DNA of 64,000 nt from Nitrospirota bacterium (GTDB taxonomy: Bacteria > Nitrospinota_A > UBA7883): assembly GCA_024275315.1 (NCBI GenBank), contig JAJRZK010000024.1:1-64000 (forward strand), in the 5' to 3' direction. Positions 3,165 to 64,000 of the stretch are shown here, in pieces (position 1 is the stretch's first letter; every line of letters starts with the position of its first letter). The notes under the pieces were generated by a model that did no database searches, was not told where the DNA came from, and saw nothing but the letters and a program-made list of their open reading frames with translations. Made by a program: the position numbers and the translations under genes.

Positions 3165-4106
3165 ATGCGAAGTTCCGACAAGATATACGTGGCCGGCCAT
3201 AAGGGTCTGGTCGGGTCCGCAATAGTGCGCGCCCTGGAAAAAGAGGGATACACCAACTTGATTCTTCGGTCCAGAGAGGAAATGGACCTGGAGGACCAGG
3301 CGAAAGTTCGGGATTTTTTTGAAACGGAACGGCCCGATTATGTCTTTCTCGCCGCGGCTCGGGTCGGCGGCATCATGGCGAACAGCACGTATCGGGCGGA
3401 ATTTATCTTCAACAACCTGATAATCCAGACAAATGTGATCGACGCCGCGTGGCGTAGCGGGGTCGAAAAACTCCTCTTTCTGGGAAGCTCGTGTATCTAT
3501 CCACGCCAATGCCCCCAGCCCATGAAGGAGGAATATCTGCTTACCGGCCCCCTGGAACCGACCAACGAGCCGTACGCCATCGCAAAAATCGCGGGTATAA
3601 AAATGTGCGAGGCGTACAACGATCAATACGGCACGAGTTTCGTTTCCGTCATGCCCACGAATCTGTACGGCCCGTTCGACAATTTCGATTTGGAAACGTC
3701 GCACGTGGCGCCGGCGCTGATACGCAAAATTCACACGGCGAAAATTAATGGAGACCCGTCCATCAGGATCTGGGGAACCGGCGCCCCCCGGAGGGAGTTC
3801 ATGCACGTAGACGACATGGCCTCGGCGTGTTTGTTTGTCATGAGGCGCGACTCGACCAGAATGGTGAACATCGGTGTCGGCTACGAAGTTACAATCAGGA
3901 AGCTGGCGGAGATGGTGTGCGAAGTTGTCGGCTTCCGTGGCGAGCTGATTTTTGACCCGTCAAAGCCCGACGGCTCCCCGCGAAAGCTACTCAACGTGTC
4001 ACGGCTCAACGATATGGGCTGGACGCCGAGGATAGGGCTGGCCGAAGGGTTGGCGAATACGTACAAATGGTTCAGTGATAATCTGGCGGCGAAGTATGGG
4101 GCTTGA
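3165..4106 (+). CDS. fcl: GDP-L-fucose synthase-like NAD(P)-dependent epimerase/reductase
   Basis: Extended SDR of 313 aa, the usual length for GDP-L-fucose synthase. That enzyme turns GDP-4-keto-6-deoxy-mannose into GDP-L-fucose by 3,5-epimerisation and NADPH reduction. Visible features: the N-terminal nucleotide motif GHKGLVGS (11-18), family segments AARVGGI and [16 protein letters not shown] (with Cys110), the catalytic Tyr137-x3-Lys141 pair, NLYGPFDNF, and RREFMHVDD near the C-terminus. No GDP-mannose dehydratase (gmd) is visible nearby, so the substrate supply is outside the window or the true substrate differs. The complete gene is on this arm only; the mirror copy runs off the window. 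Confidence 0.88.
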
Positions 4107-4169
4107 TCACATTATCAGGCCAGCCTGCGTGGCGGGGATCATCGGTCGTCATAATAATCTGCGTAAAAC

Positions 4170-5804
4170 ATGAAAATTTCCCTTGTTCAGATAAACCCGA
4201 CCATCGGGGCGATGGAAAGCAACTCACGCAAGATCATCGAGGCTGTCAAACAAGCCGGGGAGCTTGGCGCAAACCTGGCTATCACCTCCGAAATGGCAAT
4301 CACCGGATACCCCCCCAGGGATCTGCTGGACAGGCCGGATTTCGCGTCGGATTGCGAGGCGGCCCTGCGTGGGATGATATCGGAGGTGAAAGGGATCGCG
4401 GTTCTTTGCGGCCATATAGAGCGGGTGGACATCCGCAGGGGAAAACACCTGGCCAACGCCGCCACACTGTTCAGGGATGGCGAAGTGTTGGGTCGCTCAC
4501 AAAAGATGCTGCTTCCGACGTATGACGTGTTTGATGAGCTGAGATACTTCAGTCCTGGTGAACGCCCGGCCTTGTGCGAGTTGGACGGCGTAAAAATCGG
4601 CGTAACGATCTGCGAAGATGTCTGGAGCGAGCCGGGTTATGACAACGTCGGCTCTTATGACCGCAACCCGGTGGAAGAGCTTGTAAAAGAAGGAGCGGAG
4701 ATGATCGTCAACCTTTCCGCCTCCCCGTACCACCTCGGCCAGCGGGCGTTGCGTGAAAGCCTCGGGCAAGCGATAGCAAGAAAACATGGCGTTCCGTTTT
4801 TCCTGGTCAACCAGGTTGGTGGCAACGACGACCTGCTGTTTGACGGGCACAGCTTCGCCATGGCAAAAGATGGCGCTGTAGTGGCCAGGGCCAAGGGGTT
4901 TGAGGAAGACATGGTGACCGTCGACACGCAAAGCTGGACCGGTGACATCAGGGAGGTGGAGCGGTCCAGGGAGGGGAAGGTGTACAGGGCGCTTTCCATG
5001 GGAATTCGCGATTACCTGGGCAAATGCCGGTTCACCAAAGCCGTCATCGGCCTTTCGGGAGGTGTCGATTCGTCCGTTGTCGCCGTGCTCGCGGTCAACG
5101 CGCTCGGGCCGGAGAACGTGACCGGCGTGAGCATGCCGTCGCAATATACGGCTAGAATGAGCGAGGATGACGCGGCCACGCTAGCCAGGAACCTGGGCAT
5201 CGAGTTTCATACGGTTCCGATCAAGGGGCTGTTCGAAATGTATAAAAAGACTCTCAAACCGCTGTTCGAAGGGCGCGAGGAAGACGTGACCGAGGAGAAC
5301 CTGCAGGCCCGGATCAGGGGCGATATCCTGATGGCCGTCTCCAACAAATTCGGCGGGATGGTGCTGTCCACCGGCAACAAAAGCGAAACTGCGGTGGGCT
5401 ACTGCACATTGTACGGCGATATGGCGGGCGGCCTGGCGGCCATTTCGGACCTGCCCAAAATCAGTGTCTACAACCTCGCCAGATGGATAAACCGGGAGCG
5501 GGAGATCATCCCTTCTAACGTGCTGACAAGGCCGCCATCGGCTGAACTCCGCCCAGACCAGACCGATCAGGACAGCCTGCCCGATTATGACACGCTCGAT
5601 GAAATACTCGAGGCCTATGTGGAAAACCAGGAATCCCCGGAAACGATTATCGCACGCGGTTTCGACAAGGATATCACAATGAAAGTCACCCGGCTGGTGG
5701 ACAGAAACGAATATAAACGCCAGCAGGCCGCACCGGGCCTGAAGATCACGGGCAAGGCGTTCGGCAGCGGCAGGCGCATCCCCATCGCGCAAAAATACGC
5801 GTGA
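4170..5804 (+). CDS. nadE: Glutamine-dependent NAD+ synthetase
   Basis: Bifunctional enzyme of 544 aa that amidates nicotinic acid adenine dinucleotide to NAD+, using ammonia from glutamine. The N-terminal nitrilase-type glutaminase has the Glu41-Lys112-Cys148 triad (SEMAITGYPPRD, SQKMLLPTYDVFDE, TICEDVW). The C-terminal ATP-pyrophosphatase domain has the P-loop SGGVDSS at 296-302 and STGNKSE further on. The length fits glutamine-dependent forms. It starts 63 bp after the fcl-like gene on the same strand. It is a housekeeping gene lying within glycan genes, so it probably marks older chromosomal backbone. Confidence 0.95.
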   Translation: MKISLVQINPTIGAMESNSRKIIEAVKQAGELGANLAITSEMAITGYPPRDLLDRPDFASDCEAALRGMISEVKGIAVLCGHIERVDIRRGKHLANAATLFRDGEVLGRSQKMLLPTYDVFDELRYFSPGERPALCELDGVKIGVTICEDVWSEPGYDNVGSYDRNPVEELVKEGAEMIVNLSASPYHLGQRALRESLGQAIARKHGVPFFLVNQVGGNDDLLFDGHSFAMAKDGAVVARAKGFEEDMVTVDTQSWTGDIREVERSREGKVYRALSMGIRDYLGKCRFTKAVIGLSGGVDSSVVAVLAVNALGPENVTGVSMPSQYTARMSEDDAATLARNLGIEFHTVPIKGLFEMYKKTLKPLFEGREEDVTEENLQARIRGDILMAVSNKFGGMVLSTGNKSETAVGYCTLYGDMAGGLAAISDLPKISVYNLARWINREREIIPSNVLTRPPSAELRPDQTDQDSLPDYDTLDEILEAYVENQESPETIIARGFDKDITMKVTRLVDRNEYKRQQAAPGLKITGKAFGSGRRIPIAQKYA

Positions 5805-6839: not shown

Positions 6840-6873
6840 GTATGTTCCATGCAATCGTATGTTCCATGCAATC
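6840..6873. repeat. 17-bp tandem duplication at the GT2 5' end
   Basis: GTATGTTCCATGCAATC occurs twice back-to-back (6840-6856 and 6857-6873), just upstream of the chosen GT2 start. Each unit contributes an alternative upstream ATG. Since 17 is not a multiple of three, gain or loss of a unit would change which upstream ATG is in frame. Confidence 0.85.
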
Positions 6874-20183: not shown

Positions 20184-20786
20184 TCACCAGATCAGAGAGC
20201 AGGCGTCGTAGAACTTGTTCAGATAGGAGTAGGATCTCGATCCGTTGTCCTCGAATTTCAGCCCGATCTGGTTTTCGTCTTTTCTTGTTTTAACACTGCG
20301 CACAACGCACGGGAGCTTGTCCACCATCTCCCCGGAGGGCATGGTTGTTGTGATCACGCATTTATCATTGTGCTTCAGGCTCGTTTTCTTGCAGACAAAA
20401 AGACCTCCGCCTTCGCTCAAATCTATCAGGGCCCCTTCCGAGACAGAAGAACCGGAGCTTAGCCTGGCTGGAAGAAACGTGCTGACTCGCTTGCTTTTTC
20501 GCAAGTTGATGCTCTGGAAAGAATCGGGGTATTCGGCCATCCAAACACTGATCGGTTTTGTGTACGCTTTTTTAAGGCCCGTCTCGAACCCGTGCACCAT
20601 GCCATCGCTCAGGAGCCGGACTATGAAAATCGCGTTATGTGGTATGACGACATATCTGCGGTTTACTATCGGTATGTCAAAAGCTATATATTCCGGAACC
20701 GAATAACCCCTGATGGCGGAGGCGTATTTCACATTGTCGATTTCTATCTGGCATATATCACCGACCGAAATTTTTACCTTGTCCAC
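20184..20786 (-). CDS. PilZ-domain c-di-GMP-binding protein (paralogue 1)
   Basis: Protein of 200 aa with an N-terminal YcgR-like beta domain (about 1-95) and a C-terminal PilZ domain. The c-di-GMP motif is intact: R-K-S-K-R (RxxxR), then DLSEGG (D-x-S-x-x-G). It is closely related to the next upstream gene; IVRLLSDGMVHGFETGLKKAYTKP matches IVRFLDEGMVHGFETTLVKSYTKP there with few changes. It has a GTG start with a weak ribosome-binding site. A 239-bp AT-rich gap separates it from paralogue 2, suggesting its own promoter. Likely an effector of motility, pili or exopolysaccharide. Confidence 0.85.
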   Translation of the reverse strand: MDKVKISVGDICQIEIDNVKYASAIRGYSVPEYIAFDIPIVNRRYVVIPHNAIFIVRLLSDGMVHGFETGLKKAYTKPISVWMAEYPDSFQSINLRKSKRVSTFLPARLSSGSSVSEGALIDLSEGGGLFVCKKTSLKHNDKCVITTTMPSGEMVDKLPCVVRSVKTRKDENQIGLKFEDNGSRSYSYLNKFYDACSLIW

Positions 20787-21025
20787 AGCTTTCGCACCCT
20801 GTTCCGTTGCGCCTGGCCCTACTTGAATTATTGTAACTTTACGATACCTTATTTACTAATAAAATAATCATGCCCCTATTCTGGTCTGTCGCAAAGAGTG
20901 GCCTTAACTAATTTATATTATGCGTATTACAAAACAGGAAAGGGCGGATAAAAATCGTGAATGATATGAAACGTGACAAGAACCCACATGGCTCATCTTC
21001 TTGGTGCGGTAGTTATGTGATTACG
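20787..21025. other. AT-rich intergenic gap between PilZ paralogues
   Basis: This 239-bp gap holds no recognisable gene. It is clearly more AT-rich than the flanking genes and probably carries the promoter of PilZ paralogue 1, but I could not fix a convincing -35/-10 pair. Confidence 0.5.
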
Positions 21026-21655
21026 TTATACCCACATTACCCGACAGGAGTCATAAAACGATTTGAAGCGCAAATAGGGTTTCCCCTTGTCTTCAAGGAA
21101 ACACAGACCAACCTGCACATGGTTTTGTATTGTCTGGACCGAGCAAACTTTGCACTTGATGTTTTCCACTTCTCCGCTAGAGGGGAACGAAACGCTGACA
21201 TGGCAAGTCGCGCCCTTGCTGAAATTCGATTCGTCGGCGTCGATCGTGGAAAACAGGCCCCCTTTTTCGCTTATGTCGATTATAGCTCCGTCGAAAAAGG
21301 TGCTCGCCTTGGTTTCCAGCCGTGTCGGTAAAAGAGTGCTGATTCTTCTGCTTTGACGCATGTTAATGGTTTTGAATTTATACGGATAATCCGCCACCCA
21401 CAGGTTGAACGGTTTTGTATACGACTTTACCAGCGTCGTCTCGAAACCGTGGACCATTCCCTCGTCCAGAAATCGAACGATAAATATGGAACCGGCGGGG
21501 ATGACCTCATATTTACCCTTTACTATCGGAATATCCAGCAACACATATTTTGGAGCGCAAACCCCCCTGAAGACGGACCGGTATTTTATCACCCCGATCT
21601 GTACCTGGCACAATTCCCCCACGGGGATTACGATGTCATTCCTGTTGTCGCTCAA
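21026..21655 (-). CDS. PilZ-domain c-di-GMP-binding protein (paralogue 2)
   Basis: Protein of 209 aa with the same two-domain layout as paralogue 1. The RxxxR motif is R-Q-S-R-R in NMRQSRRIS and the second motif is DISEKGG. It starts with TTG 8 bp after paralogue 3, with an AAGGTAG stretch upstream, so the two are probably co-translated. Sharing of whole segments with paralogue 1 shows a recent local duplication. Confidence 0.85.
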   Translation of the reverse strand: MSDNRNDIVIPVGELCQVQIGVIKYRSVFRGVCAPKYVLLDIPIVKGKYEVIPAGSIFIVRFLDEGMVHGFETTLVKSYTKPFNLWVADYPYKFKTINMRQSRRISTLLPTRLETKASTFFDGAIIDISEKGGLFSTIDADESNFSKGATCHVSVSFPSSGEVENIKCKVCSVQTIQNHVQVGLCFLEDKGKPYLRFKSFYDSCRVMWV

Positions 21656-21663
21656 TTTGCCCG

Positions 21664-22293
21664 CTACCTTATCTGGTAAGCCTGTACTTGTTTAAGGAAC
21701 TCTCTCAAGGGATTGAGCTCATCGTCGTCGATCACATCAAACTCCACACCGTACGAGTTTTTATCGCCCAGGTTGGTTTCCGCTCTCAGGATGCACGCCA
21801 GCTTGTCAATGCGCGAGCCTGTTGGGAAATCGATTTGCAGGAAGATTTTCGAACCGACATGGTATGTTTTCTGGCAGACCAGCTTGCACCCACCTTCGCT
21901 TATGTCGGTGATCACCCCGACATCGTCGGCTTGGCCGGTTTCGGCGCTCCTGGATATGGTCACTGGTAGCGTGGCGTTGTAACGTTCGTTCTGGCGGTAC
22001 GAGGTGGCCATGATATCGTCCGGATACCGCAACACGACCAGCTTGAACTCCATGAGAACCCCGAGTTGCGTTGTGGTAAAACCATAGTAGCGCCCCTTGC
22101 CGAAAAGCCTTCCTATAATTTCGGAGCTATCAGGCCGGCTCCAGGATATGTCCGGCATCTCGACCAGCAAATAGTGGCTATTCTTCCAGCCGCGCAAAAC
22201 CGCCTTGGACACTTTTGAGCCTTTTTCAAGGGATAGCTCCATCCCGGTTTCCAGGTTCAGGGTCTCGTTCATCTGTTTTACCCGTAACATCAC
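21664..22293 (-). CDS. PilZ-domain c-di-GMP-binding protein (paralogue 3)
   Basis: The most divergent of the three tandem PilZ proteins, 209 aa from the longest start. RxxxR is R-Q-N-E-R in YRQNERYNATLP and the second motif is DISEGGC. The N-terminal domain (about 10-105) is YcgR-like with YYGFTTTQLGVLMEFKLVVLRYP. The first codons offer GTG, ATG and a later ATG (22273), so the start is uncertain by up to 7 residues. It heads the PilZ operon, with a perfect -10 box about 50 bp upstream. Confidence 0.83.
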   Translation of the reverse strand: MMLRVKQMNETLNLETGMELSLEKGSKVSKAVLRGWKNSHYLLVEMPDISWSRPDSSEIIGRLFGKGRYYGFTTTQLGVLMEFKLVVLRYPDDIMATSYRQNERYNATLPVTISRSAETGQADDVGVITDISEGGCKLVCQKTYHVGSKIFLQIDFPTGSRIDKLACILRAETNLGDKNSYGVEFDVIDDDELNPLREFLKQVQAYQIR

Positions 22294-22439: not shown

Positions 22440-23711
22440 TCAGCGGATAGTTTCCAGCCCGTTCATATATGGCCGCAGAGCTTTTGGAATCGAAATGGAA
22501 CCGTCATCGCACTGCATGTTTTCCATGATCGCCACAACAGTTCTGCCTACGGCCAGACCGGATCCGTTCAGGGTATGGACATATTCCGGTTTGGATTTTT
22601 TCCCCCTGCGAACACGTATATTCGCCCGGCGGGCCTGGTAATCTGTAAACCAGGAGCATGAAGAAATTTCCCTGTATTTGCCCTGGGACGGAACCCATAC
22701 CTCCAGATCATAGGTTTTGGCCGCGGAAAAACCGAGATCGCCTCCACACAGGTTCACCACCCGGTACGGCAGGTTTAGCCTGCGCAGGATCTCCTCGGCG
22801 TTGCCTGTCAGTTTTTCCAGCTCTGATTCCGCCTCTTCGGCGTACGCCAGCTTGACCAGCTCTACCTTGTTGAACTGGTGCTGGCGGATCAGCCCGGTGG
22901 TATCGCGCCCGTAAGACCCCGCCTCCGACCGGAAACATGGAGTAAAAGCACACATAAGCACCGGCATGTCGGCTCCATCGAGAATCTCGCCAGCATACAG
23001 GTTTGTAAGGGGCGCCTCGGCGGTCGGGATAAGCCAGTAATCCGTGGAGCTGATCTTGAACAGGTCATCTTTAAATTTCGGCAGTTGGCCTGTGCCGGTC
23101 ATGGTGTCGCTGTTTACCAGGTATGGAGGAGCCACTTCCAGATAGCCATGTTCGCGTGTGTGAATATCAAGCATGAAATTGATCAGGGCCCGCTCCAGTT
23201 CGGCGCCTGGTCCCTTGTAGACGGTGAACCTGGCCCCGGCGATCTTCGCGGCCCTGGAAAAATCCAGAATGCCCAGCGCCTCGCCCAGCTCCACATGCGA
23301 CCTGGGTCTGAACGTGAATTCCGGTGTTTCGCCCCAGCGTCTTATTTCCACATTAAAGGACTCGTCATCGCCTTCCGGTATGGTTTCATCAGGCGTGTTC
23401 GGAATTGTCAGCAGTTTCGACCGGATATCGGACTCGATGTTTTTTAACGAGCTCTCCAGCTCTTTTATTTCAGAGCCGATCCTGCGGGATTCGGACTGGA
23501 TGTCATCCGCGTTTTCCCCCGATTTTTTTCGCGCTCCGATTATCCTGCTGATTTCGTTGCGGGCGCGTTTGAGCTCATCGGTCTTATGAACCAGATGGAG
23601 CCGGTCCTTGTCGAGCTTCAGCAATCCGCCGATGTCATAATCGCCCCCCCGCTTTTCGAGCAGGGCGCGTACACGCTGTTCGTTTTCCCTGATCGATTTT
23701 ATATCCAGCAT
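22440..23711 (-). CDS. serS: Seryl-tRNA synthetase
   Basis: Class II aminoacyl-tRNA synthetase of 423 aa that charges tRNA-Ser (and tRNA-Sec). Residues 1 to about 110 form the long coiled-coil tRNA-binding arm, rich in Glu/Lys/Leu. The catalytic core has TAEAPLTNLYAGE, motif 2 FRSEAGSYGRDTTGLIRQHQ and motif 3 GSGLAVGRTVVAIMENMQ. The length is typical. It begins 8 bp after the TPR lipoprotein gene, so gyrA, the lipoprotein gene and serS appear to be one transcription unit. A tRNA-Ser gene lies about 2.3 kb away. Confidence 0.97.
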   Translation of the reverse strand: MLDIKSIRENEQRVRALLEKRGGDYDIGGLLKLDKDRLHLVHKTDELKRARNEISRIIGARKKSGENADDIQSESRRIGSEIKELESSLKNIESDIRSKLLTIPNTPDETIPEGDDESFNVEIRRWGETPEFTFRPRSHVELGEALGILDFSRAAKIAGARFTVYKGPGAELERALINFMLDIHTREHGYLEVAPPYLVNSDTMTGTGQLPKFKDDLFKISSTDYWLIPTAEAPLTNLYAGEILDGADMPVLMCAFTPCFRSEAGSYGRDTTGLIRQHQFNKVELVKLAYAEEAESELEKLTGNAEEILRRLNLPYRVVNLCGGDLGFSAAKTYDLEVWVPSQGKYREISSCSWFTDYQARRANIRVRRGKKSKPEYVHTLNGSGLAVGRTVVAIMENMQCDDGSISIPKALRPYMNGLETIR

Positions 23712-23719
23712 GCCATTCG

Positions 23720-24538
23720 CTACCGTTTTCTCATTCTCATGCGCTTGTTGAGCGAGTCGATTTTCCTGTCCACCAGCTCTTTGTCGGGAAATTCCTTTTT
23801 CATGGTCTCATAAACCTCAAGCGCCTCTTTAAGCTGGTCCATATCCTCATAGGCCGAGGCGACGCTGAGATGGATGTCGTACAGGTATTTGTTGCCAGGA
23901 TAATCGTGCAACAATTGCTTTAGCAGTACAATCGCTTTTTTCGGCTCGCCATTTATCAACCTGGAGCTTGCCACCTGGTAGCGCGCGTCCAGGGCAAGAT
24001 CACTATCGGGATACTCCTGAAGAAGGGTTTGGTACTCGATGATCGCCTGGGCGTATTCATGCTTGTTAAAATACGCCTTGGCTATAAGATACCTGTATGC
24101 GTCCGGTTTGACTGAGTCGGAAAACTCGCTGAGGATTCTTTGGTATTGCAGGATCGCAAGATCATGATCGCCCAGCGAGCGCTCGTATATCTCCGCGATA
24201 TACTTGTATGCGCGCAGTGTAAGCTTGCTCTTGTCTTCACGCTCGACGACCCGGGAAAAATAATCAAGCGCCCGGGTGGGATCGTCCAGATTCAGGTAGT
24301 GTATCTCCCCCAGGCGGAAAAGGGCCATGGACGCAAGTTTCGAGTCGGGATATTCCGCCGTAATCAACCGGAACTTGTCAACCGCCTCGACATATTCATC
24401 CTTTAGCCAATGATCCTGGGCCGAGTCGTACAGCGCCTTGTCCCGCCCCTGGCAACCGGATAAAACCATCAGCAGCATAAGAAAAAATCCCTGCGTGGCA
24501 TTCCGTACCCATGAGCGTTTAATCCGCCTTTGCGTCAT
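23720..24538 (-). CDS. TPR-repeat lipoprotein (BamD/YfiO-like)
   Basis: Lipoprotein of 272 aa. A basic N-terminus and hydrophobic stretch lead to the lipobox LSGC with Cys29, followed by Gln-Gly, consistent with outer-membrane sorting. The rest is about five TPR-like repeats (for example [30 protein letters not shown]). I chose the ATG at 24538, which overlaps the end of gyrA by 20 bp and has AGGAGCAGGA upstream; a longer frame to 24592 lacks support. Similar proteins work in outer-membrane assembly (BamD) or as Tol-Pal partners, but specific assignment is not possible. Confidence 0.82.
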
Positions 24539-26981
24539 CCTGGTCCTGCTCCTGCAACCTGCCCACGGATTGAACCCGGTCTCCTTTGCCAAGGCTGATC
24601 ACCCGAACTCCTTTCGTGTTGCGACCGATAACGGACACATCGGAAGCCTCGATACGTATCACCACGCCTGAACCGCTGATTATTATCAGGTCGTCACCGG
24701 CCTCGACACGTTTGACAGCCACAACAGGGCCCGACGAAGAGTCGATCTTGATATCTATCACGCCCTTCCCCCCGCGCCGCTGCAGCGGATACCTGGCCAG
24801 CTGGGTCCTCTTACCATACCCGTCTTCCCTGATTGTAAAATAGGACGCCTGCCCTTTGTCGTCCTGGTCAAACATGGCCATGCCGACAACAGAGCCGCCT
24901 TCCAAAAGGGATATGGCGCGAACGCCCCTGGCCGATCTACCCATGGGGCGGATGTCGTTTTCGTGGAACCGGATAGCGTATCCATAGCTGGTGGACAGGA
25001 CAACGTTCTGCCTGCCATCGGTGACGTTCGCGGCGATAACGTCGTCATCGTCGTCGAGACCGGTGGCGATGATGCCGCCCGCGTGAATTCTTGAAAAAGC
25101 GTCCAGGCTGGTCTTTTTAATATATCCCTTGCGCGTGGCGGTCACCAGGAACATGTCTTTACCGAAAGCCTTCACCGGAAATATCGTCGCCACTTTTTCC
25201 TCCGGCTGAAGCTGGATCAGGTTTACCACGGCCTTGCCCTTCGCCACCCTGGAGGCGGCCGGTATTTCGTACACTTTCTTACGGAAAATACGCCCGCGGT
25301 TGGTGAAAAACAGGATATTGTCATGCGTGGATGCGACGAAAAGATCCTGTACGATGTCCTCCTCTTTCATCCTCATACCCTTCACCCCCTTGCCGCCACG
25401 TTTCTGGGCGCGAAATTCGGCTACCGGGTTGCGCTTTATATATCCGGACATCGAGGTGGTCACAACCATGTCCTCCTCGGCTATCAGGTCCTCCATGTCC
25501 ACTTCGCTCTCAACGGGAACCAGGCGGGTGCGCCTTTCGTCACCGAACACGGTTTTGAGGGTCAGCAGTTCTTTTTTGATAATATTGAGCTTTTCATCCT
25601 CATGGTCGCGGATATACTCCAGCCTCTCTATCGTCTGCAATATTTGCTTCCTCTCGTCGATTATCTTGCGCCTCTCCATCCCGGTGAGCCTTTGGAGCCG
25701 CAACTCTAAAATCGCTTTCGCCTGCTCCAGCGTGAACCCGAATTGTTCCACAAGCCCCGACCTGGCCTGTTCCGGTCCCTCCGCGGCCCTGATCAGCTTT
25801 ATGACTTCATTGAGATTTTCAAGGGCCTTGACGTATCCGGCCAGGATATGCTCCCGTTGCCCGGCTTTTCTCAGGTCGAACAGCGTCCTGCGTGTGACAA
25901 TCACGCGGCGGTGCTCCACGAAATGAAAAAGAGCCTCCTTCAGGTTAAGCTGTCTCGGCCGCCCGTTCACCAGGGCGATCATGATCACGCCAAAAGTGTC
26001 CTGTAGCTGGGTATGCTTGTAAAGCTGGTTAAGCGCCACCTGGCCGACGGCGTCTTTTTTAAGCTCTATCACCACACGCATCCCTTCACGGTCCGATTCG
26101 TCCCGTATATCGGATATGCCGGTGATTTTCTTGTCCTTGGTAAGCTCGGCGATTTTCTCCACCAGCTTGGCCTTGTTTACCTGGTAGGGAATCTCGTTGA
26201 TGACGATTCGCTCCCGGTTCCCCTTTTCCATCTGTTCGATTTCCGCCTTGCCGCGCATCACTATCAGCCCGCGCCCCGTGACATAGGCCTCGCGGATGCC
26301 CGCGGAGCCGTGAATCTCCCCCGCGGTGGGGAAATCAGGCCCTTTTATATGCTCCATCAGGTCGAATACGCTGCATTCGGGATTGTCGATAAGGTGAACC
26401 AGACCGTCGACCACCTCGCCAAGGTTGTGGGGCGGGATATTTGTCGCCATCCCCACCGCGATGCCGCTGGCGCCGTTTATCAGAAGGTTGGGAATCTTCG
26501 ACGGCAGGACCTTGGGTTCGCTTTCGGATTCGTCGTAGTTCGGGATGAAATCGACCGTTTCCTTGTCCAGGTCCTCAAGCAATTCAGCGCTTATTTTCTC
26601 GAGCCGGGCTTCGGTGTAACGCATGGCCGCAGGAGAATCGCCGTCTATGGAGCCGAAGTTGCCCTGGCCATCCACCAGCCTGTAACGCAATGAAAAAACC
26701 TGCGCCATTCGGACAAGGGCGTCATAAACCGCGGCGTCGCCGTGTGGGTGGTATTTGGCTATGACTTCACCGACCGTCCGGGCGGATTTCTTGTACGCTT
26801 TGTTATGGTGGTTGCCCATCCCGTGCATCGCATACAGAATCCTGCGGTGCACAGGTTTTAACCCGTCCCGCACGTCCGGCAACGCACGGGACACGATCAC
26901 GCTCATTGAATATTCGAGAAAAGACGATTTCATCTCGTCTTCTATGGCGACGGGAAGAGTCCTCAGATTTGCTTCAGTCAT
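24519..26981 (-). CDS. gyrA: DNA gyrase subunit A
   Basis: Type II topoisomerase subunit of 820 aa that cuts and rejoins DNA during negative supercoiling, with GyrB as partner. The catalytic tyrosine is Tyr122 ([10 protein letters not shown]). The C-terminal domain carries the GyrA box QRRGGKG at 734-740, which marks gyrase rather than topoisomerase IV. Numbering matches E. coli in the quinolone region: position 83 is Ala ([10 protein letters not shown]) and position 87 is Asp. Ala83 in place of Ser is known to lower quinolone sensitivity in some bacteria. It starts the gyrA-lipoprotein-serS unit. Confidence 0.97.
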
Positions 26982-28041: not shown

Positions 28042-29540
28042 TTCGCCACCCGTCCGTAGGTAGTGAAATACTCCGACGGCTTGACCGATTTTATGGCTCC
28101 GGTGGGGCAGTTGTGCTGGCATCCGAGGTGATCGAAATCCATGCAGAGGTCGCATTTGACCGCCCGTTGCCTGACGGCTTTTTTGCCGCCTGCGGCCACG
28201 CGGTCGTCCGCGGCCACGTGGTCGCCCGCGGTCACTCGACCGCCACCAATCCATGACCGTACCCTGTCGGTCATTCGCAGTCCGGCGCCGTCTGTTTGCC
28301 TGTCCACTATGCTTATATTCCCGAAGGGGCATCTTCGCGCGCAGTTTCCGCATCCGATGCACTCGTCCGTATGATAGACCTCGCCATGGGTGTTGCGCTT
28401 GATGGCGCCGGTCGGGCATCCGATCATGCATGTAGGTTCGCGGCAGTGCCGGCAGGACGTGGGGATGAGAATGTTCCTGTACCGGACGCCGTTATGCGTG
28501 ATCCTTGTAACTCCCTGATGGAGCTTGGCGCACGTGACGATGCAGTTCAGGCATCGAACGCACTGGTTGAGGTCCAGTATCAAAACGGCGTCCGCGGTTA
28601 AAATATCATGGCTGGCGACCCATTTGAGCATATCCTGCTCGGTTTCGCTCTGGATTTTCGTCGAGTCTGTGTATCGCTCCGCGGCGATAGCCTTCAGGCC
28701 GGAGGCGACCTCCGGATACGCCAGAAGTATCTTGTTGAACTCCCGCTTCCCTATCTTCACAAGCTCGACCCTGGTCAGCGCCCGGGCGGTGGCGGACCTT
28801 CGCCGGTTGCCGAACAAGGAGCGTTCTCCAAAATAGAAACCTCTGCCCAGATAGGCCAGGATAAACTCTTCTTTCTTTTTCGCCTTCGACGGGCTGATGT
28901 ACGCCTTGTCGAACCGGGAATCGAAAAACCGGCTCTCGTCCTTGTCCGCCGCTCTGGATATCTGCACAAAACCGTCCCGGATAAGATAAAAGGCGTCCGC
29001 GTCGTCACCTTCGGAGAAAATGACATCCCCCTTGGCGCGCACCTCGAGCTTCACCTGTTTGGCGATGGCTTTCATGGTGGGGCCCTCTATCCCGGAAAGA
29101 ACGTCGACGGATTTAAGCGAGCCGAGCAGGGCCCTCTCGCGGTAGCGCTCGTCCAGCCTCTCCTTGACGGCCGGAGTGGAGTCTATGAGCTTTAAAAAAC
29201 CCTCCCTGCCGATCCGGAGCAACCTGGCTTCCCGCACACACCTGACCTCCGCCAACCGGGGGTTGCCAGACAGTATCGACATCTCCCCCAAAAGCTCACC
29301 GGGTCCCAGACTCCGGACCTGCCTCTTCTTCCCCGTCTCCTTGTCGGTGACCAGCACTTCGAAAGCTCCCTTGAGCACGATATAGCATATCTGCTCATAC
29401 TCACCCTCCTCGATGATAACCTCCCCGGCCGGGATATGGACCAGGTCGGCCTCCTGGACAAGGGTCTCTATAGCTTCCTTGGACGCCCCTGCAAAAAAGG
29501 GGCTCTTGGCGATCAGCTCCACCAGGCTGGCAAACTCCAT
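28038..29540 (-). CDS. Dual cyclic-nucleotide-binding domain, four-cluster ferredoxin fusion
   Basis: Protein of 500 aa. Two cNMP-binding (CRP-type) beta-barrels span about 5-130 and 145-290, with phosphate-cassette-like segments GELLGEMSILSGNPRLAEV and FGERSLFGNRRRSATARA. After about 325 there are four cysteine quartets: CVRCLNCIVTC, CRHCREPTCMIGC, CIGCGNCARRC and CDLCMDFDHLGCQHNC, fitting four [4Fe-4S] clusters as in DmsB/HycB-type electron-transfer subunits. The fusion suggests electron transfer gated by a nucleotide second messenger. The ATG shares one base with the stop of the cytochrome c gene. An 18-bp minisatellite lies between clusters 3 and 4. Confidence 0.85.
   Translation of the reverse strand: MEFASLVELIAKSPFFAGASKEAIETLVQEADLVHIPAGEVIIEEGEYEQICYIVLKGAFEVLVTDKETGKKRQVRSLGPGELLGEMSILSGNPRLAEVRCVREARLLRIGREGFLKLIDSTPAVKERLDERYRERALLGSLKSVDVLSGIEGPTMKAIAKQVKLEVRAKGDVIFSEGDDADAFYLIRDGFVQISRAADKDESRFFDSRFDKAYISPSKAKKKEEFILAYLGRGFYFGERSLFGNRRRSATARALTRVELVKIGKREFNKILLAYPEVASGLKAIAAERYTDSTKIQSETEQDMLKWVASHDILTADAVLILDLNQCVRCLNCIVTCAKLHQGVTRITHNGVRYRNILIPTSCRHCREPTCMIGCPTGAIKRNTHGEVYHTDECIGCGNCARRCPFGNISIVDRQTDGAGLRMTDRVRSWIGGGRVTAGDHVAADDRVAAGGKKAVRQRAVKCDLCMDFDHLGCQHNCPTGAIKSVKPSEYFTTYGRVAK
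28185..28235. repeat. 18-bp minisatellite inside ferredoxin coding sequence
   Basis: About 2.7 in-frame copies of an 18-bp unit encode V-T/A-A-G/D-D-H/R, between the third and fourth Fe-S cysteine groups. Unit length is a multiple of three, so copy-number change would alter linker length without frameshift. Confidence 0.75.
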
Positions 29541-30868: not shown

Positions 30869-30974
30869 CCCGCTATTATGACATTAAAACCGGCGCGTTT
30901 GACGGGTGATTATCGCGAATTTACCCGGGCGCAACCGTTACCGCGCCATTGTCTGCCATTCCCCCCGGACCCGT

Positions 30975-30994
30975 CCCGCCCTTTCCGGGGCGGG
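30975..30994. promoter_or_regulatory. GC-rich hairpin in the divergent control region
   Basis: CCCGCCC (30975-30981) and GGGCGGG (30988-30994) form a perfect 7-bp stem with a 6-nt loop. It lies in the 5' region of the cytochrome c operon. It could act on mRNA leader structure; there is no T-tract in either direction. Confidence 0.35.
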
Positions 30995-31000
30995 GCGATG

Positions 31001-31021
31001 TTATGTAGTATTACTTCATAA
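31001..31021. promoter_or_regulatory. Operator-like 21-bp dyad (RpiR/HexR-like)
   Basis: A 21-bp near-perfect inverted repeat with one mismatched pair, in the gap between the divergent cytochrome and rpiR-BMC operons. Its core TGTAGTATTACTTCA (31004-31018) fits 14 of 15 positions of TGTARTWWWAYTACA, the consensus I recall for HexR, an RpiR-family regulator. It lies 24 bp upstream of the rpiR -35 box. It is the obvious candidate for autoregulation of the BMC operon and may also affect the cytochrome operon. Confidence 0.5.
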
Positions 31022-36615: not shown

Positions 36616-36639
36616 GGTCGATCCCGTGTTTTGTCCTGC

Positions 36640-36668
36640 ATTGTACACCGGCTAAGAGGATATATCAA
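36640..36668 (-). promoter_or_regulatory. rpiR-BMC promoter (mirror copy)
   Basis: Mirror of the TTGATA-17-TACAAT promoter, read on the minus strand: -10 at 36640-36645 and -35 at 36663-36668. Confidence 0.65.
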
Positions 36669-36691
36669 GTTTTTTTACATTATTTTAATAT

Positions 36692-36712
36692 TTATGAAGT
36701 AATACTACATAA
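36692..36712. promoter_or_regulatory. RpiR/HexR-like 21-bp dyad (mirror copy)
   Basis: Mirror of the operator-like dyad between the divergent cytochrome and BMC operons, with the same single mismatched pair. The GC hairpin mirror follows at 36719-36738. Confidence 0.5.
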
Positions 36713-36844
36713 CATCGCCCCGCCCCGGAAAGGGCGGGACGGGTCCGGGGGGAATGGCAGACAATGGCGCGGTAACGGTTGCGCCCGGGTAAATTCGCGA
36801 TAATCACCCGTCAAACGCGCCGGTTTTAATGTCATAATAGCGGG

Positions 36845-38173
36845 ATGAAAAAACACACGGCTCTGATCACGTTGACGACGATTATCATAACCGCGGTCAT
36901 GGTGTCGGCGATAACCGGCGCGAAAATGTCCATGTTCAGGCCCGGTCCGATGTTCGATGGCCACAAGCGGTTCGCCGACGGTTGTTTCGCGTGCCATGAG
37001 AAATGGAGCGGTGTGGACGACCGGAAATGTCTTTCGTGTCATGAAAAATTTATCGGCGTCGACACCCATGGCGCCGCGAGGATGGTCAACCCCGTCAAGG
37101 CCGAAGTGCCGGAGCGGTTGACCTCTCTTTCGTGCGTGACCTGCCACAGGGAGCACCGGTCCGTCGAGGCCAGGTCGGGATATACCGGTCCGCCGGGTCT
37201 TTGCGTCATGTGCCACCCGAAGAGGCGCCTCAACGAGGGTCACGCCAGGTTCGATCTGGAATCCTGCTCGACCCCGTCATGCCACACATACCATTTCAAC
37301 ATCGGGGCCGACGACTTCGCCCGCGCCGACAGGAGGATGATTTTGCCGAGGTCGAAAGTGGTCGCACCCCCCGCAAAGGTCGAGCATATCGGTATAGGAT
37401 CGGCCGGCATAAACAAGATGCGTCGCACCCCCTTTTACAGGAGCAACCCTGTCATCATGGCCCAATACCAGATCAGCCGGCACTACGGCACGCAGGCCAC
37501 ATGCGACAGGTGCCACAAGGGAAAAGCCGGGGCGGACGCGCGCGGTGGCGGCGTCAACATGCGGCCGGGCGCAAAAGTCTGCCAGGAATGCCACCCTATC
37601 CAGACCAGGGGGTATGGGGCCGGCCGTCACGGTGTCCACGATCTGCAGGGGCTAGAGCCCTTTTCGGACCCTGGAAGCCAGGTGGGGTGCGGTGGTTGCC
37701 ATGACGTTCACAGCCTCGGGACGCAGGACGCGAGGATGAAAGCGTGCGAGCTGTGCCATGGTCAGAGCGCCCATGTGCGCAACTACGGTAAGTCGGGCCA
37801 CTACAGGTATCTGTCCGACCCGGTGTTTTTATACAAACCGATGACAGGCGTCGATTGCGCCGGATGTCACATGCCCCGGCTGGAGGGGAATGGCGGAGTG
37901 ACCGAGCATAACGAGTCGTGGTTGGTGTCCACCAAGGAGCGGATGGCGGTTTATGTCTGCGTCCGTTGCCATGGGCTGGCGTTTTCGTTGCAGAGCCTGT
38001 ACGACCCGGAGGTTGTAAAGTCGAATTTCACAATCGCCCCCACTACGGAGCCGCCGGGGCTGGAGTACGCCCTGAGGTCGCCGCGCCTGATCGATGATGG
38101 CAAAATGGAGAGTGGCAGAGATATGAACGAACCCGCGACGGGATCGATTACGCAAAAGGGAGCGGAAGGTTGA
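36845..38173 (+). CDS. Undecaheme c-type cytochrome (mirror copy)
   Basis: Identical 442-aa periplasmic cytochrome with ten CXXCH sites and one CX4CH. First gene of the redox operon on this arm. The stop overlaps the next ATG by one base. Confidence 0.9.
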   Translation: MKKHTALITLTTIIITAVMVSAITGAKMSMFRPGPMFDGHKRFADGCFACHEKWSGVDDRKCLSCHEKFIGVDTHGAARMVNPVKAEVPERLTSLSCVTCHREHRSVEARSGYTGPPGLCVMCHPKRRLNEGHARFDLESCSTPSCHTYHFNIGADDFARADRRMILPRSKVVAPPAKVEHIGIGSAGINKMRRTPFYRSNPVIMAQYQISRHYGTQATCDRCHKGKAGADARGGGVNMRPGAKVCQECHPIQTRGYGAGRHGVHDLQGLEPFSDPGSQVGCGGCHDVHSLGTQDARMKACELCHGQSAHVRNYGKSGHYRYLSDPVFLYKPMTGVDCAGCHMPRLEGNGGVTEHNESWLVSTKERMAVYVCVRCHGLAFSLQSLYDPEVVKSNFTIAPTTEPPGLEYALRSPRLIDDGKMESGRDMNEPATGSITQKGAEG

Positions 38174-39675
38174 TGGAGTTTGCCAGCCTGGTGGAGCTGA
38201 TCGCCAAGAGCCCCTTTTTTGCAGGGGCGTCCAAGGAAGCTATAGAGACCCTTGTCCAGGAGGCCGACCTGGTCCATATCCCGGCCGGGGAGGTTATCAT
38301 CGAGGAGGGTGAGTATGAGCAGATATGCTATATCGTGCTCAAGGGAGCTTTCGAAGTGCTGGTCACCGACAAGGAGACGGGGAAGAAGAGGCAGGTCCGG
38401 AGTCTGGGACCCGGTGAGCTTTTGGGGGAGATGTCGATACTGTCTGGCAACCCCCGGTTGGCGGAGGTCAGGTGTGTGCGGGAAGCCAGGTTGCTCCGGA
38501 TCGGCAGGGAGGGTTTTTTAAAGCTCATAGACTCCACTCCGGCCGTCAAGGAGAGGCTGGACGAGCGCTACCGCGAGAGGGCCCTGCTCGGCTCGCTTAA
38601 ATCCGTCGACGTTCTTTCCGGGATAGAGGGCCCCACCATGAAAGCCATCGCCAAACAGGTGAAGCTCGAGGTGCGCGCCAAGGGGGATGTCATTTTCTCC
38701 GAAGGTGACGACGCGGACGCCTTTTATCTTATCCGGGACGGTTTTGTGCAGATATCCAGAGCGGCGGACAAGGACGAGAGCCGGTTTTTCGATTCCCGGT
38801 TCGACAAGGCGTACATCAGCCCGTCGAAGGCGAAAAAGAAAGAAGAGTTTATCCTGGCCTATCTGGGCAGAGGTTTCTATTTTGGAGAACGCTCCTTGTT
38901 CGGCAACCGGCGAAGGTCCGCCACCGCCCGGGCGCTGACCAGGGTCGAGCTTGTGAAGATAGGGAAGCGGGAGTTCAACAAGATACTTCTGGCGTATCCG
39001 GAGGTCGCCTCCGGCCTGAAGGCTATCGCCGCGGAGCGATACACAGACTCGACGAAAATCCAGAGCGAAACCGAGCAGGATATGCTCAAATGGGTCGCCA
39101 GCCATGATATTTTAACCGCGGACGCCGTTTTGATACTGGACCTCAACCAGTGCGTTCGATGCCTGAACTGCATCGTCACGTGCGCCAAGCTCCATCAGGG
39201 AGTTACAAGGATCACGCATAACGGCGTCCGGTACAGGAACATTCTCATCCCCACGTCCTGCCGGCACTGCCGCGAACCTACATGCATGATCGGATGCCCG
39301 ACCGGCGCCATCAAGCGCAACACCCATGGCGAGGTCTATCATACGGACGAGTGCATCGGATGCGGAAACTGCGCGCGAAGATGCCCCTTCGGGAATATAA
39401 GCATAGTGGACAGGCAAACAGACGGCGCCGGACTGCGAATGACCGACAGGGTACGGTCATGGATTGGTGGCGGTCGAGTGACCGCGGGCGACCACGTGGC
39501 CGCGGACGACCGCGTGGCCGCAGGCGGCAAAAAAGCCGTCAGGCAACGGGCGGTCAAATGCGACCTCTGCATGGATTTCGATCACCTCGGATGCCAGCAC
39601 AACTGCCCCACCGGAGCCATAAAATCGGTCAAGCCGTCGGAGTATTTCACTACCTACGGACGGGTGGCGAAATGA
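38173..39675 (+). CDS. cNMP-binding/four-cluster ferredoxin fusion (mirror copy)
   Basis: Identical 500-aa protein with two cNMP-binding domains and sixteen cluster cysteines. The 18-bp minisatellite lies at 39478-39528. Confidence 0.85.
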   Translation: MEFASLVELIAKSPFFAGASKEAIETLVQEADLVHIPAGEVIIEEGEYEQICYIVLKGAFEVLVTDKETGKKRQVRSLGPGELLGEMSILSGNPRLAEVRCVREARLLRIGREGFLKLIDSTPAVKERLDERYRERALLGSLKSVDVLSGIEGPTMKAIAKQVKLEVRAKGDVIFSEGDDADAFYLIRDGFVQISRAADKDESRFFDSRFDKAYISPSKAKKKEEFILAYLGRGFYFGERSLFGNRRRSATARALTRVELVKIGKREFNKILLAYPEVASGLKAIAAERYTDSTKIQSETEQDMLKWVASHDILTADAVLILDLNQCVRCLNCIVTCAKLHQGVTRITHNGVRYRNILIPTSCRHCREPTCMIGCPTGAIKRNTHGEVYHTDECIGCGNCARRCPFGNISIVDRQTDGAGLRMTDRVRSWIGGGRVTAGDHVAADDRVAAGGKKAVRQRAVKCDLCMDFDHLGCQHNCPTGAIKSVKPSEYFTTYGRVAK

Positions 39676-40731: not shown

Positions 40732-43194
40732 ATGACTGAAGCAAATCTGAGGACTCTTCCCGTCGCCATAGAAGACGAGATGAAATCGTCTTTTCTCGAA
40801 TATTCAATGAGCGTGATCGTGTCCCGTGCGTTGCCGGACGTGCGGGACGGGTTAAAACCTGTGCACCGCAGGATTCTGTATGCGATGCACGGGATGGGCA
40901 ACCACCATAACAAAGCGTACAAGAAATCCGCCCGGACGGTCGGTGAAGTCATAGCCAAATACCACCCACACGGCGACGCCGCGGTTTATGACGCCCTTGT
41001 CCGAATGGCGCAGGTTTTTTCATTGCGTTACAGGCTGGTGGATGGCCAGGGCAACTTCGGCTCCATAGACGGCGATTCTCCTGCGGCCATGCGTTACACC
41101 GAAGCCCGGCTCGAGAAAATAAGCGCTGAATTGCTTGAGGACCTGGACAAGGAAACGGTCGATTTCATCCCGAACTACGACGAATCCGAAAGCGAACCCA
41201 AGGTCCTGCCGTCGAAGATTCCCAACCTTCTGATAAACGGCGCCAGCGGCATCGCGGTGGGGATGGCGACAAATATCCCGCCCCACAACCTTGGCGAGGT
41301 GGTCGACGGTCTGGTTCACCTTATCGACAATCCCGAATGCAGCGTATTCGACCTGATGGAGCATATAAAAGGGCCTGATTTCCCCACCGCGGGGGAGATT
41401 CACGGCTCCGCGGGCATCCGCGAGGCCTATGTCACGGGGCGCGGGCTGATAGTGATGCGCGGCAAGGCGGAAATCGAACAGATGGAAAAGGGGAACCGGG
41501 AGCGAATCGTCATCAACGAGATTCCCTACCAGGTAAACAAGGCCAAGCTGGTGGAGAAAATCGCCGAGCTTACCAAGGACAAGAAAATCACCGGCATATC
41601 CGATATACGGGACGAATCGGACCGTGAAGGGATGCGTGTGGTGATAGAGCTTAAAAAAGACGCCGTCGGCCAGGTGGCGCTTAACCAGCTTTACAAGCAT
41701 ACCCAGCTACAGGACACTTTTGGCGTGATCATGATCGCCCTGGTGAACGGGCGGCCGAGACAGCTTAACCTGAAGGAGGCTCTTTTTCATTTCGTGGAGC
41801 ACCGCCGCGTGATTGTCACACGCAGGACGCTGTTCGACCTGAGAAAAGCCGGGCAACGGGAGCATATCCTGGCCGGATACGTCAAGGCCCTTGAAAATCT
41901 CAATGAAGTCATAAAGCTGATCAGGGCCGCGGAGGGACCGGAACAGGCCAGGTCGGGGCTTGTGGAACAATTCGGGTTCACGCTGGAGCAGGCGAAAGCG
42001 ATTTTAGAGTTGCGGCTCCAAAGGCTCACCGGGATGGAGAGGCGCAAGATAATCGACGAGAGGAAGCAAATATTGCAGACGATAGAGAGGCTGGAGTATA
42101 TCCGCGACCATGAGGATGAAAAGCTCAATATTATCAAAAAAGAACTGCTGACCCTCAAAACCGTGTTCGGTGACGAAAGGCGCACCCGCCTGGTTCCCGT
42201 TGAGAGCGAAGTGGACATGGAGGACCTGATAGCCGAGGAGGACATGGTTGTGACCACCTCGATGTCCGGATATATAAAGCGCAACCCGGTAGCCGAATTT
42301 CGCGCCCAGAAACGTGGCGGCAAGGGGGTGAAGGGTATGAGGATGAAAGAGGAGGACATCGTACAGGATCTTTTCGTCGCATCCACGCATGACAATATCC
42401 TGTTTTTCACCAACCGCGGGCGTATTTTCCGTAAGAAAGTGTACGAAATACCGGCCGCCTCCAGGGTGGCGAAGGGCAAGGCCGTGGTAAACCTGATCCA
42501 GCTTCAGCCGGAGGAAAAAGTGGCGACGATATTTCCGGTGAAGGCTTTCGGTAAAGACATGTTCCTGGTGACCGCCACGCGCAAGGGATATATTAAAAAG
42601 ACCAGCCTGGACGCTTTTTCAAGAATTCACGCGGGCGGCATCATCGCCACCGGTCTCGACGACGATGACGACGTTATCGCCGCGAACGTCACCGATGGCA
42701 GGCAGAACGTTGTCCTGTCCACCAGCTATGGATACGCTATCCGGTTCCACGAAAACGACATCCGCCCCATGGGTAGATCGGCCAGGGGCGTTCGCGCCAT
42801 ATCCCTTTTGGAAGGCGGCTCTGTTGTCGGCATGGCCATGTTTGACCAGGACGACAAAGGGCAGGCGTCCTATTTTACAATCAGGGAAGACGGGTATGGT
42901 AAGAGGACCCAGCTGGCCAGGTATCCGCTGCAGCGGCGCGGGGGGAAGGGCGTGATAGATATCAAGATCGACTCTTCGTCGGGCCCTGTTGTGGCTGTCA
43001 AACGTGTCGAGGCCGGTGACGACCTGATAATAATCAGCGGTTCAGGCGTGGTGATACGTATCGAGGCTTCCGATGTGTCCGTTATCGGTCGCAACACGAA
43101 AGGAGTTCGGGTGATCAGCCTTGGCAAAGGAGACCGGGTTCAATCCGTGGGCAGGTTGCAGGAGCAGGACCAGGATGACGCAAAGGCGGATTAA
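40732..43194 (+). CDS. gyrA: DNA gyrase subunit A (mirror copy)
   Basis: Identical 820-aa GyrA with Tyr122, Ala83, Asp87 and the QRRGGKG box. A second identical gyrA in one genome would be extraordinary, which supports the artefact interpretation of this arm. Confidence 0.97.
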
Positions 43195-44001: not shown

Positions 44002-45273
44002 ATGCTGGATATAAAATCGATCAGGGAAAACGAACAGCGTGTACGCGCCCTGCTCGAAAAGCGGGGGGGCGATTATGACATCGGCGGATTGCTGAAGCTC
44101 GACAAGGACCGGCTCCATCTGGTTCATAAGACCGATGAGCTCAAACGCGCCCGCAACGAAATCAGCAGGATAATCGGAGCGCGAAAAAAATCGGGGGAAA
44201 ACGCGGATGACATCCAGTCCGAATCCCGCAGGATCGGCTCTGAAATAAAAGAGCTGGAGAGCTCGTTAAAAAACATCGAGTCCGATATCCGGTCGAAACT
44301 GCTGACAATTCCGAACACGCCTGATGAAACCATACCGGAAGGCGATGACGAGTCCTTTAATGTGGAAATAAGACGCTGGGGCGAAACACCGGAATTCACG
44401 TTCAGACCCAGGTCGCATGTGGAGCTGGGCGAGGCGCTGGGCATTCTGGATTTTTCCAGGGCCGCGAAGATCGCCGGGGCCAGGTTCACCGTCTACAAGG
44501 GACCAGGCGCCGAACTGGAGCGGGCCCTGATCAATTTCATGCTTGATATTCACACACGCGAACATGGCTATCTGGAAGTGGCTCCTCCATACCTGGTAAA
44601 CAGCGACACCATGACCGGCACAGGCCAACTGCCGAAATTTAAAGATGACCTGTTCAAGATCAGCTCCACGGATTACTGGCTTATCCCGACCGCCGAGGCG
44701 CCCCTTACAAACCTGTATGCTGGCGAGATTCTCGATGGAGCCGACATGCCGGTGCTTATGTGTGCTTTTACTCCATGTTTCCGGTCGGAGGCGGGGTCTT
44801 ACGGGCGCGATACCACCGGGCTGATCCGCCAGCACCAGTTCAACAAGGTAGAGCTGGTCAAGCTGGCGTACGCCGAAGAGGCGGAATCAGAGCTGGAAAA
44901 ACTGACAGGCAACGCCGAGGAGATCCTGCGCAGGCTAAACCTGCCGTACCGGGTGGTGAACCTGTGTGGAGGCGATCTCGGTTTTTCCGCGGCCAAAACC
45001 TATGATCTGGAGGTATGGGTTCCGTCCCAGGGCAAATACAGGGAAATTTCTTCATGCTCCTGGTTTACAGATTACCAGGCCCGCCGGGCGAATATACGTG
45101 TTCGCAGGGGGAAAAAATCCAAACCGGAATATGTCCATACCCTGAACGGATCCGGTCTGGCCGTAGGCAGAACTGTTGTGGCGATCATGGAAAACATGCA
45201 GTGCGATGACGGTTCCATTTCGATTCCAAAAGCTCTGCGGCCATATATGAACGGGCTGGAAACTATCCGCTGA
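44002..45273 (+). CDS. serS: Seryl-tRNA synthetase (mirror copy)
   Basis: Identical 423-aa class II synthetase with a coiled-coil arm and motifs 2 and 3. It follows the lipoprotein gene by 8 bp. Confidence 0.97.
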   Translation: MLDIKSIRENEQRVRALLEKRGGDYDIGGLLKLDKDRLHLVHKTDELKRARNEISRIIGARKKSGENADDIQSESRRIGSEIKELESSLKNIESDIRSKLLTIPNTPDETIPEGDDESFNVEIRRWGETPEFTFRPRSHVELGEALGILDFSRAAKIAGARFTVYKGPGAELERALINFMLDIHTREHGYLEVAPPYLVNSDTMTGTGQLPKFKDDLFKISSTDYWLIPTAEAPLTNLYAGEILDGADMPVLMCAFTPCFRSEAGSYGRDTTGLIRQHQFNKVELVKLAYAEEAESELEKLTGNAEEILRRLNLPYRVVNLCGGDLGFSAAKTYDLEVWVPSQGKYREISSCSWFTDYQARRANIRVRRGKKSKPEYVHTLNGSGLAVGRTVVAIMENMQCDDGSISIPKALRPYMNGLETIR

Positions 45274-60839: not shown

Positions 60840-60873
60840 GATTGCATGGAACATACGATTGCATGGAACATAC
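60840..60873. repeat. 17-bp tandem duplication (mirror copy)
   Basis: Two adjacent copies of GATTGCATGGAACATAC on the plus strand, upstream of the GT2 start. Confidence 0.85.
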
Positions 60874-61908: not shown

Positions 61909-63543
61909 TCACGCGTATTTTTGCGCGATGGGGATGCGCCTGCCGCTGCCGAACGCCTTGCCCGTGATCTTCAGGCCCGGTGCGGCCTGCTGGCGTTTAT
62001 ATTCGTTTCTGTCCACCAGCCGGGTGACTTTCATTGTGATATCCTTGTCGAAACCGCGTGCGATAATCGTTTCCGGGGATTCCTGGTTTTCCACATAGGC
62101 CTCGAGTATTTCATCGAGCGTGTCATAATCGGGCAGGCTGTCCTGATCGGTCTGGTCTGGGCGGAGTTCAGCCGATGGCGGCCTTGTCAGCACGTTAGAA
62201 GGGATGATCTCCCGCTCCCGGTTTATCCATCTGGCGAGGTTGTAGACACTGATTTTGGGCAGGTCCGAAATGGCCGCCAGGCCGCCCGCCATATCGCCGT
62301 ACAATGTGCAGTAGCCCACCGCAGTTTCGCTTTTGTTGCCGGTGGACAGCACCATCCCGCCGAATTTGTTGGAGACGGCCATCAGGATATCGCCCCTGAT
62401 CCGGGCCTGCAGGTTCTCCTCGGTCACGTCTTCCTCGCGCCCTTCGAACAGCGGTTTGAGAGTCTTTTTATACATTTCGAACAGCCCCTTGATCGGAACC
62501 GTATGAAACTCGATGCCCAGGTTCCTGGCTAGCGTGGCCGCGTCATCCTCGCTCATTCTAGCCGTATATTGCGACGGCATGCTCACGCCGGTCACGTTCT
62601 CCGGCCCGAGCGCGTTGACCGCGAGCACGGCGACAACGGACGAATCGACACCTCCCGAAAGGCCGATGACGGCTTTGGTGAACCGGCATTTGCCCAGGTA
62701 ATCGCGAATTCCCATGGAAAGCGCCCTGTACACCTTCCCCTCCCTGGACCGCTCCACCTCCCTGATGTCACCGGTCCAGCTTTGCGTGTCGACGGTCACC
62801 ATGTCTTCCTCAAACCCCTTGGCCCTGGCCACTACAGCGCCATCTTTTGCCATGGCGAAGCTGTGCCCGTCAAACAGCAGGTCGTCGTTGCCACCAACCT
62901 GGTTGACCAGGAAAAACGGAACGCCATGTTTTCTTGCTATCGCTTGCCCGAGGCTTTCACGCAACGCCCGCTGGCCGAGGTGGTACGGGGAGGCGGAAAG
63001 GTTGACGATCATCTCCGCTCCTTCTTTTACAAGCTCTTCCACCGGGTTGCGGTCATAAGAGCCGACGTTGTCATAACCCGGCTCGCTCCAGACATCTTCG
63101 CAGATCGTTACGCCGATTTTTACGCCGTCCAACTCGCACAAGGCCGGGCGTTCACCAGGACTGAAGTATCTCAGCTCATCAAACACGTCATACGTCGGAA
63201 GCAGCATCTTTTGTGAGCGACCCAACACTTCGCCATCCCTGAACAGTGTGGCGGCGTTGGCCAGGTGTTTTCCCCTGCGGATGTCCACCCGCTCTATATG
63301 GCCGCAAAGAACCGCGATCCCTTTCACCTCCGATATCATCCCACGCAGGGCCGCCTCGCAATCCGACGCGAAATCCGGCCTGTCCAGCAGATCCCTGGGG
63401 GGGTATCCGGTGATTGCCATTTCGGAGGTGATAGCCAGGTTTGCGCCAAGCTCCCCGGCTTGTTTGACAGCCTCGATGATCTTGCGTGAGTTGCTTTCCA
63501 TCGCCCCGATGGTCGGGTTTATCTGAACAAGGGAAATTTTCAT
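61909..63543 (-). CDS. nadE: Glutamine-dependent NAD+ synthetase (mirror copy)
   Basis: Identical 544-aa enzyme with the glutaminase triad and SGGVDSS P-loop. Confidence 0.95.
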   Translation of the reverse strand: MKISLVQINPTIGAMESNSRKIIEAVKQAGELGANLAITSEMAITGYPPRDLLDRPDFASDCEAALRGMISEVKGIAVLCGHIERVDIRRGKHLANAATLFRDGEVLGRSQKMLLPTYDVFDELRYFSPGERPALCELDGVKIGVTICEDVWSEPGYDNVGSYDRNPVEELVKEGAEMIVNLSASPYHLGQRALRESLGQAIARKHGVPFFLVNQVGGNDDLLFDGHSFAMAKDGAVVARAKGFEEDMVTVDTQSWTGDIREVERSREGKVYRALSMGIRDYLGKCRFTKAVIGLSGGVDSSVVAVLAVNALGPENVTGVSMPSQYTARMSEDDAATLARNLGIEFHTVPIKGLFEMYKKTLKPLFEGREEDVTEENLQARIRGDILMAVSNKFGGMVLSTGNKSETAVGYCTLYGDMAGGLAAISDLPKISVYNLARWINREREIIPSNVLTRPPSAELRPDQTDQDSLPDYDTLDEILEAYVENQESPETIIARGFDKDITMKVTRLVDRNEYKRQQAAPGLKITGKAFGSGRRIPIAQKYA

Positions 63544-63606
63544 GTTTTACGCAGATTATTATGACGACCGATGATCCCCGCCACGCAGGCTGGCCTGATA
63601 ATGTGA

Positions 63607-64000
63607 TCAAGCCCCATACTTCGCCGCCAGATTATCACTGAACCATTTGTACGTATTCGCCAACCCTTCGGCCAGCCCTATCCTCGGCGTCCAGCCCATA
63701 TCGTTGAGCCGTGACACGTTGAGTAGCTTTCGCGGGGAGCCGTCGGGCTTTGACGGGTCAAAAATCAGCTCGCCACGGAAGCCGACAACTTCGCACACCA
63801 TCTCCGCCAGCTTCCTGATTGTAACTTCGTAGCCGACACCGATGTTCACCATTCTGGTCGAGTCGCGCCTCATGACAAACAAACACGCCGAGGCCATGTC
63901 GTCTACGTGCATGAACTCCCTCCGGGGGGCGCCGGTTCCCCAGATCCTGATGGACGGGTCTCCATTAATTTTCGCCGTGTGAATTTTGCGTATCAGCGCC
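63607..64000 (-). CDS. fcl: GDP-L-fucose synthase-like SDR, C-terminal part (mirror copy, cut by window edge)
   Basis: The C-terminal 130 or so residues of the fcl-like protein, identical to the complete copy on the left arm. Its N-terminal half lies beyond base 64000, so the mirror continues outside the window. Confidence 0.88.
   Translation of the reverse strand, partial: ALIRKIHTAKINGDPSIRIWGTGAPRREFMHVDDMASACLFVMRRDSTRMVNIGVGYEVTIRKLAEMVCEVVGFRGELIFDPSKPDGSPRKLLNVSRLNDMGWTPRIGLAEGLANTYKWFSDNLAAKYGA

Follow-up and report, generated by a model that had tools for sequence, protein, structure and literature searches.

Contigs that are palindromic from end to end have been described in short-read assemblies of Mycobacterium bovis, where 81 entirely palindromic contigs were judged by the authors to be an assembly error (PMC9455707), and palindromic contigs were removed as likely assembly artefacts from single-cell cyanobacterial assemblies (PMC12755884). 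Fold-back chimeras, in turn, are documented from whole-genome amplification or library preparation (PMC6218980, PMC10908179). Here we analyse a window of 64,000 nucleotides from a Nitrospirota bacterium (GCA_024275315.1), consisting of the initial 64,000 bases of contig JAJRZK010000024.1 (hereafter C15) in a genome of 63 contigs and 2.9 Mb, in which two perfectly mirrored arms meet inside an aldehyde dehydrogenase gene. This palindrome is almost certainly an assembly artefact, the real chromosome having a single copy that runs from a repeat through one arm into another contig of the same genome, C26.

As in M. bovis, the whole of C15 is one palindrome carrying identical reverse-complement gene copies (PMC9455707), and the case is the same in kind as these published contigs, with no biological novelty. 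The M. bovis cases are isolates assembled by another pipeline (PMC9455707), whereas here the contig overlaps suggest an assembler run at k=141 and, probably, a metagenome bin. The cyanobacterial genomes were amplified from single cells (PMC12755884), while C15 gives no sign of amplification. In fold-back chimeras, a polymerase or annealing event yields inverted copies and could seed a junction of the C15 type, but such chimeras are read- or fragment-length and often arise at natural inverted repeats (PMC6218980, PMC10908179). The 33.9-kb arm of C15, in contrast, appears to be set by the assembly graph, from a repeat branch to the axis, and there is no inverted repeat at the axis.

Symmetry of the contig

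The initial annotation described positions 3713-33856 and 33857-64000 as an exact palindrome with no spacer, and this holds to the base: the two segments are reverse complements over 30,144 bp per arm, with 0 mismatches and 0 spacer, and the runner-up zero-spacer arm with its centre within 30000-38000 reaches 7 bp only. The starting point of 3713, with 1-3712 as a unique flank, was wrong. C15 totals 67,712 bp (2 x 33,856) and is exactly identical, end to end, to its own reverse complement, so that the palindrome spans all 67,712 bp. Positions 1-3712 belong to the left arm, with their mirror at contig positions 64001-67712, and looked like a unique flank because the window stopped at 64,000. 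As the whole contig is self-complementary, no part of it is unique, and the comparison of depth on 1-3712 with the arms and the use of uniquely anchored reads, both suggested earlier, have no possible basis within it.

The left arm (1-33856, + strand) is most probably the one real copy of a chromosomal stretch reaching from a repeat branch to the axis. By its exact symmetry, the right arm (33857-64000, - strand, running on to contig base 67,712) would be an artefactual reverse-complement copy. The axis (33856-33857) would then be a false junction with zero spacer within the dehydrogenase gene. At the outer end of the arm (window 1-221) lies a dispersed repeat of about 170 bp, 95-99% identical between copies, which is also found on C13, C29, C17, and C32 (L008 1-167, L009 1501-1624, L010 1501-1591, and L011 1501-1544) and terminates several contigs.

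The interrupted dehydrogenase and its continuation

When the axis region was searched against the genome, it matched C15 itself and the first 139 bases of C26 (7,112 bp). C26 opens with window positions 33719-33857 (+ strand) and then diverges from the palindrome; the assembly thus contains, on a separate contig, the true sequence beyond the axis that an artefact implies. Read from the arm into C26, the dehydrogenase stays in frame as an uninterrupted protein of 486 aa, followed by an RnfC/PduS-like gene; read across the axis, the frame becomes antisense and then meets a stop. The gene as it stands on C15 (33364-33963, + strand; mirror 33750-34349, - strand) is therefore a truncated EutE-type aldehyde dehydrogenase, of which residues 1-164 are real and the remainder is antisense readthrough. 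Both pieces match NF011927 (EutE-type aldehyde dehydrogenase), the C15 piece at the front and the C26 piece at the rear of the profile. The search for a continuous dehydrogenase on another contig, proposed in the initial annotation as a check, was thus positive.

Gene order in relatives leads to the same arrangement. The dehydrogenase is one uninterrupted frame in genomes of the same family, order, and class (60-73% identity). In all ten relatives fetched with flanks (one of them a 4-contig assembly), the arm genes by the axis, the dehydrogenase, and the C26 genes follow in the same order and orientation, although in one relative (L203) the contig stops just inside the first gene past the dehydrogenase. 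On the arm side, the genes adjoining the axis (31065-33339, + strand) encode an RpiR-type regulator, a bacterial microcompartment (BMC) shell protein, and an EutN/CcmL pentamer, and are syntenic with the C26 genes in relatives: the shell protein and the pentamer keep this order in 10/10 relatives and the regulator in 9/10. No fold-back at this locus was found in any of the ten, which are colinear across the axis as expected if the palindrome is artefactual. This conserved order strongly indicates that, on the chromosome, the arm is followed by C26; together with the C26 continuation, it supports the fold-back or assembly error that the initial annotation had preferred.

The same observations bear on a linear replicon with hairpin ends, whether present as a head-to-head dimer or with its hairpin telomere read through. 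Zero-spacer symmetry would look alike in that case, but the dehydrogenase gene that the axis interrupts continues intact on C26, so the axis is not a physical end of DNA, relatives have an ordinary contiguous chromosome at this point, and the arm bears the housekeeping genes gyrA, serS, and nadE. We regard this explanation as vanishingly improbable.

The genes around the axis form a microcompartment operon (window 31065-33856, continuing on C26 (L005) 1-4514) that is cut by the artefact. Its order is RpiR-type regulator, CcmP-like BMC shell protein, EutN/CcmL pentamer, EutE-type aldehyde dehydrogenase, and PduS/RnfC-like protein; by eye, these are followed by more small shell-like genes and what seems to be a class II aldolase. 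This order is kept across the family, order, and class, and the nearest named homologues are from metagenome-assembled genomes of Nitrospinota and Nitrospirae.

Assembly graph and origin of the junction

Among the 117 readable contig ends compared, 20 pairs of ends meet or coincide by exactly 141 bp. Exact end overlaps of this length are the signature of de Bruijn assembly at a final k of 141, the default maximum of MEGAHIT. At both ends of C15, the last 141 bp are identical to an end of C13, and the arm therefore corresponds to a unitig stretching from the repeat branch to the axis. With C15 against itself left aside, no other exact end match is longer than 124 bp. In C4 (29,183 bp; its ends are in L016 and L128), start and end likewise overlap by exactly 141 bp, and the end of C56 (L175) also leads into the C4 start, so that C4 is possibly a circular element or else a tandem repeat.

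A k=141 de Bruijn graph of the MEGAHIT style could produce C15 as follows. A self-complementary junction would arise at the end of a 33,856-bp unitig, where a self-complementary 142-mer would tie the unitig to its own reverse complement. The true link from the unitig to C26 would be lost, probably through missing 142-mers, and the assembler would output the arm followed by its reverse complement, coming to a stop at the same repeat branch on either side. The junction itself may go back to a small number of fold-back chimeric reads or to a step of the assembler. A toy graph with k=141 was built from three inputs, namely the arm, C26 from its actual first base, and a short palindromic junction. 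It returned two separate contigs, of which one was self-complementary with exactly 67,712 bp and the other had 7,112 bp. The link between arm and C26 is absent from this graph because C26 itself begins two bases short of the normal branch; once the two 142-mers missing from the true path are put back, the arm ends at 33,857. The toy graph shows that such a junction is sufficient, not that it was the cause.

Some points sit less easily with an assembly artefact. The junction k-mers may derive from a chimeric library molecule or purely from the assembler. The start of C26 falls two bases short of the usual 141-bp branch overlap, for which we infer dropped edges. No inverted repeat (at least 6 bp, loop below 40) is centred on the axis in the arm-to-C26 sequence, which has a 2-bp palindromic core only; a natural inverted repeat was thus rejected as the seed, and either a few fold-back molecules were sequenced or the join was made by the assembler. 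Finally, no fold-back was detected at other contig ends of the bin (outer 2.5 kb; no perfect arm above 9 bp). The apparent palindromic ends of C5, C8, C28, and C51 proved to be runs of N, not sequence.

The lack of a seed also bears on a real but minor inverted duplication, of the tandem-inversion type or from a replicated hairpin-capped break, that would be present in part of the population and preferred by the assembler over the path into C26. E. coli is known to form inverted duplications through hairpins (PMC3315005). Since the palindromic junction, and not the link to C26, survived in the final graph, junction k-mers were presumably present. Moreover, no sbcD was found in this genome (rated 100% complete) with TIGR00619, so that a known source of palindrome instability may be missing here; among 14 control genomes, Caulobacter vibrioides likewise had no match. 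For the same reason, destruction of such a palindrome by SbcCD was abandoned as an argument. However, the short inverted repeat or quasi-palindrome expected at the junction of a natural inverted duplication is absent from the axis, the zero-spacer junction falls inside a gene, C26 is present in the same bin with the normal arrangement, none of the ten relatives shows the duplication, and entirely palindromic contigs are a known assembly error. A minor inverted duplication is therefore very unlikely, and slightly more doubtful still is its specific form in which part of this uncultured population has a true inverted duplication (2 x 33.9 kb, zero spacer), tolerated perhaps for want of a recognisable SbcD, beside the normal arrangement into C26.

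Doubled genes and consequences for the genome

If the palindrome is an assembly artefact, several single genes are doubled only through it. These include gyrA (24519-26981, - strand; mirror 40732-43194, + strand), serS (22440-23711, - strand; mirror 44002-45273, + strand), and nadE, encoding NAD+ synthase (4170-5804, + strand; mirror 61909-63543, - strand). Tandem repeats are mirrored as well (28187-28235 / 39478-39526 and 6840-6873 / 60840-60873). The mirror coordinates agree with the duplicated genes and mirrored minisatellite reported in the initial annotation; nadE and any in-frame TAG are mirrored because the arms are exact reverse complements. Above the curated cut-off, at most one serS per genome was found in the 22 relatives searched (18/22 have serS), against two here, both on C15. 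Similarly, gyrA exceeds the cut-off at two places only, both on C15, with a weaker match on C42 that is presumably the paralogue parC. Three tandem PilZ-like genes (about 200-209 aa; window 20184-22293, - strand) lie upstream of the serS end, the third called by similarity to the equivalent place in a relative.

The significance of this case is limited to data hygiene. The artefact doubles about 30 genes (gyrA, serS, nadE, and others) and inflates genome size by 33.9 kb; it also makes two broken copies from one enzyme gene and splits the microcompartment operon. Such cases would be picked up automatically by testing each contig for identity with its reverse complement, and copy-number, synteny, and pangenome work on this genome should use a single arm joined to C26.
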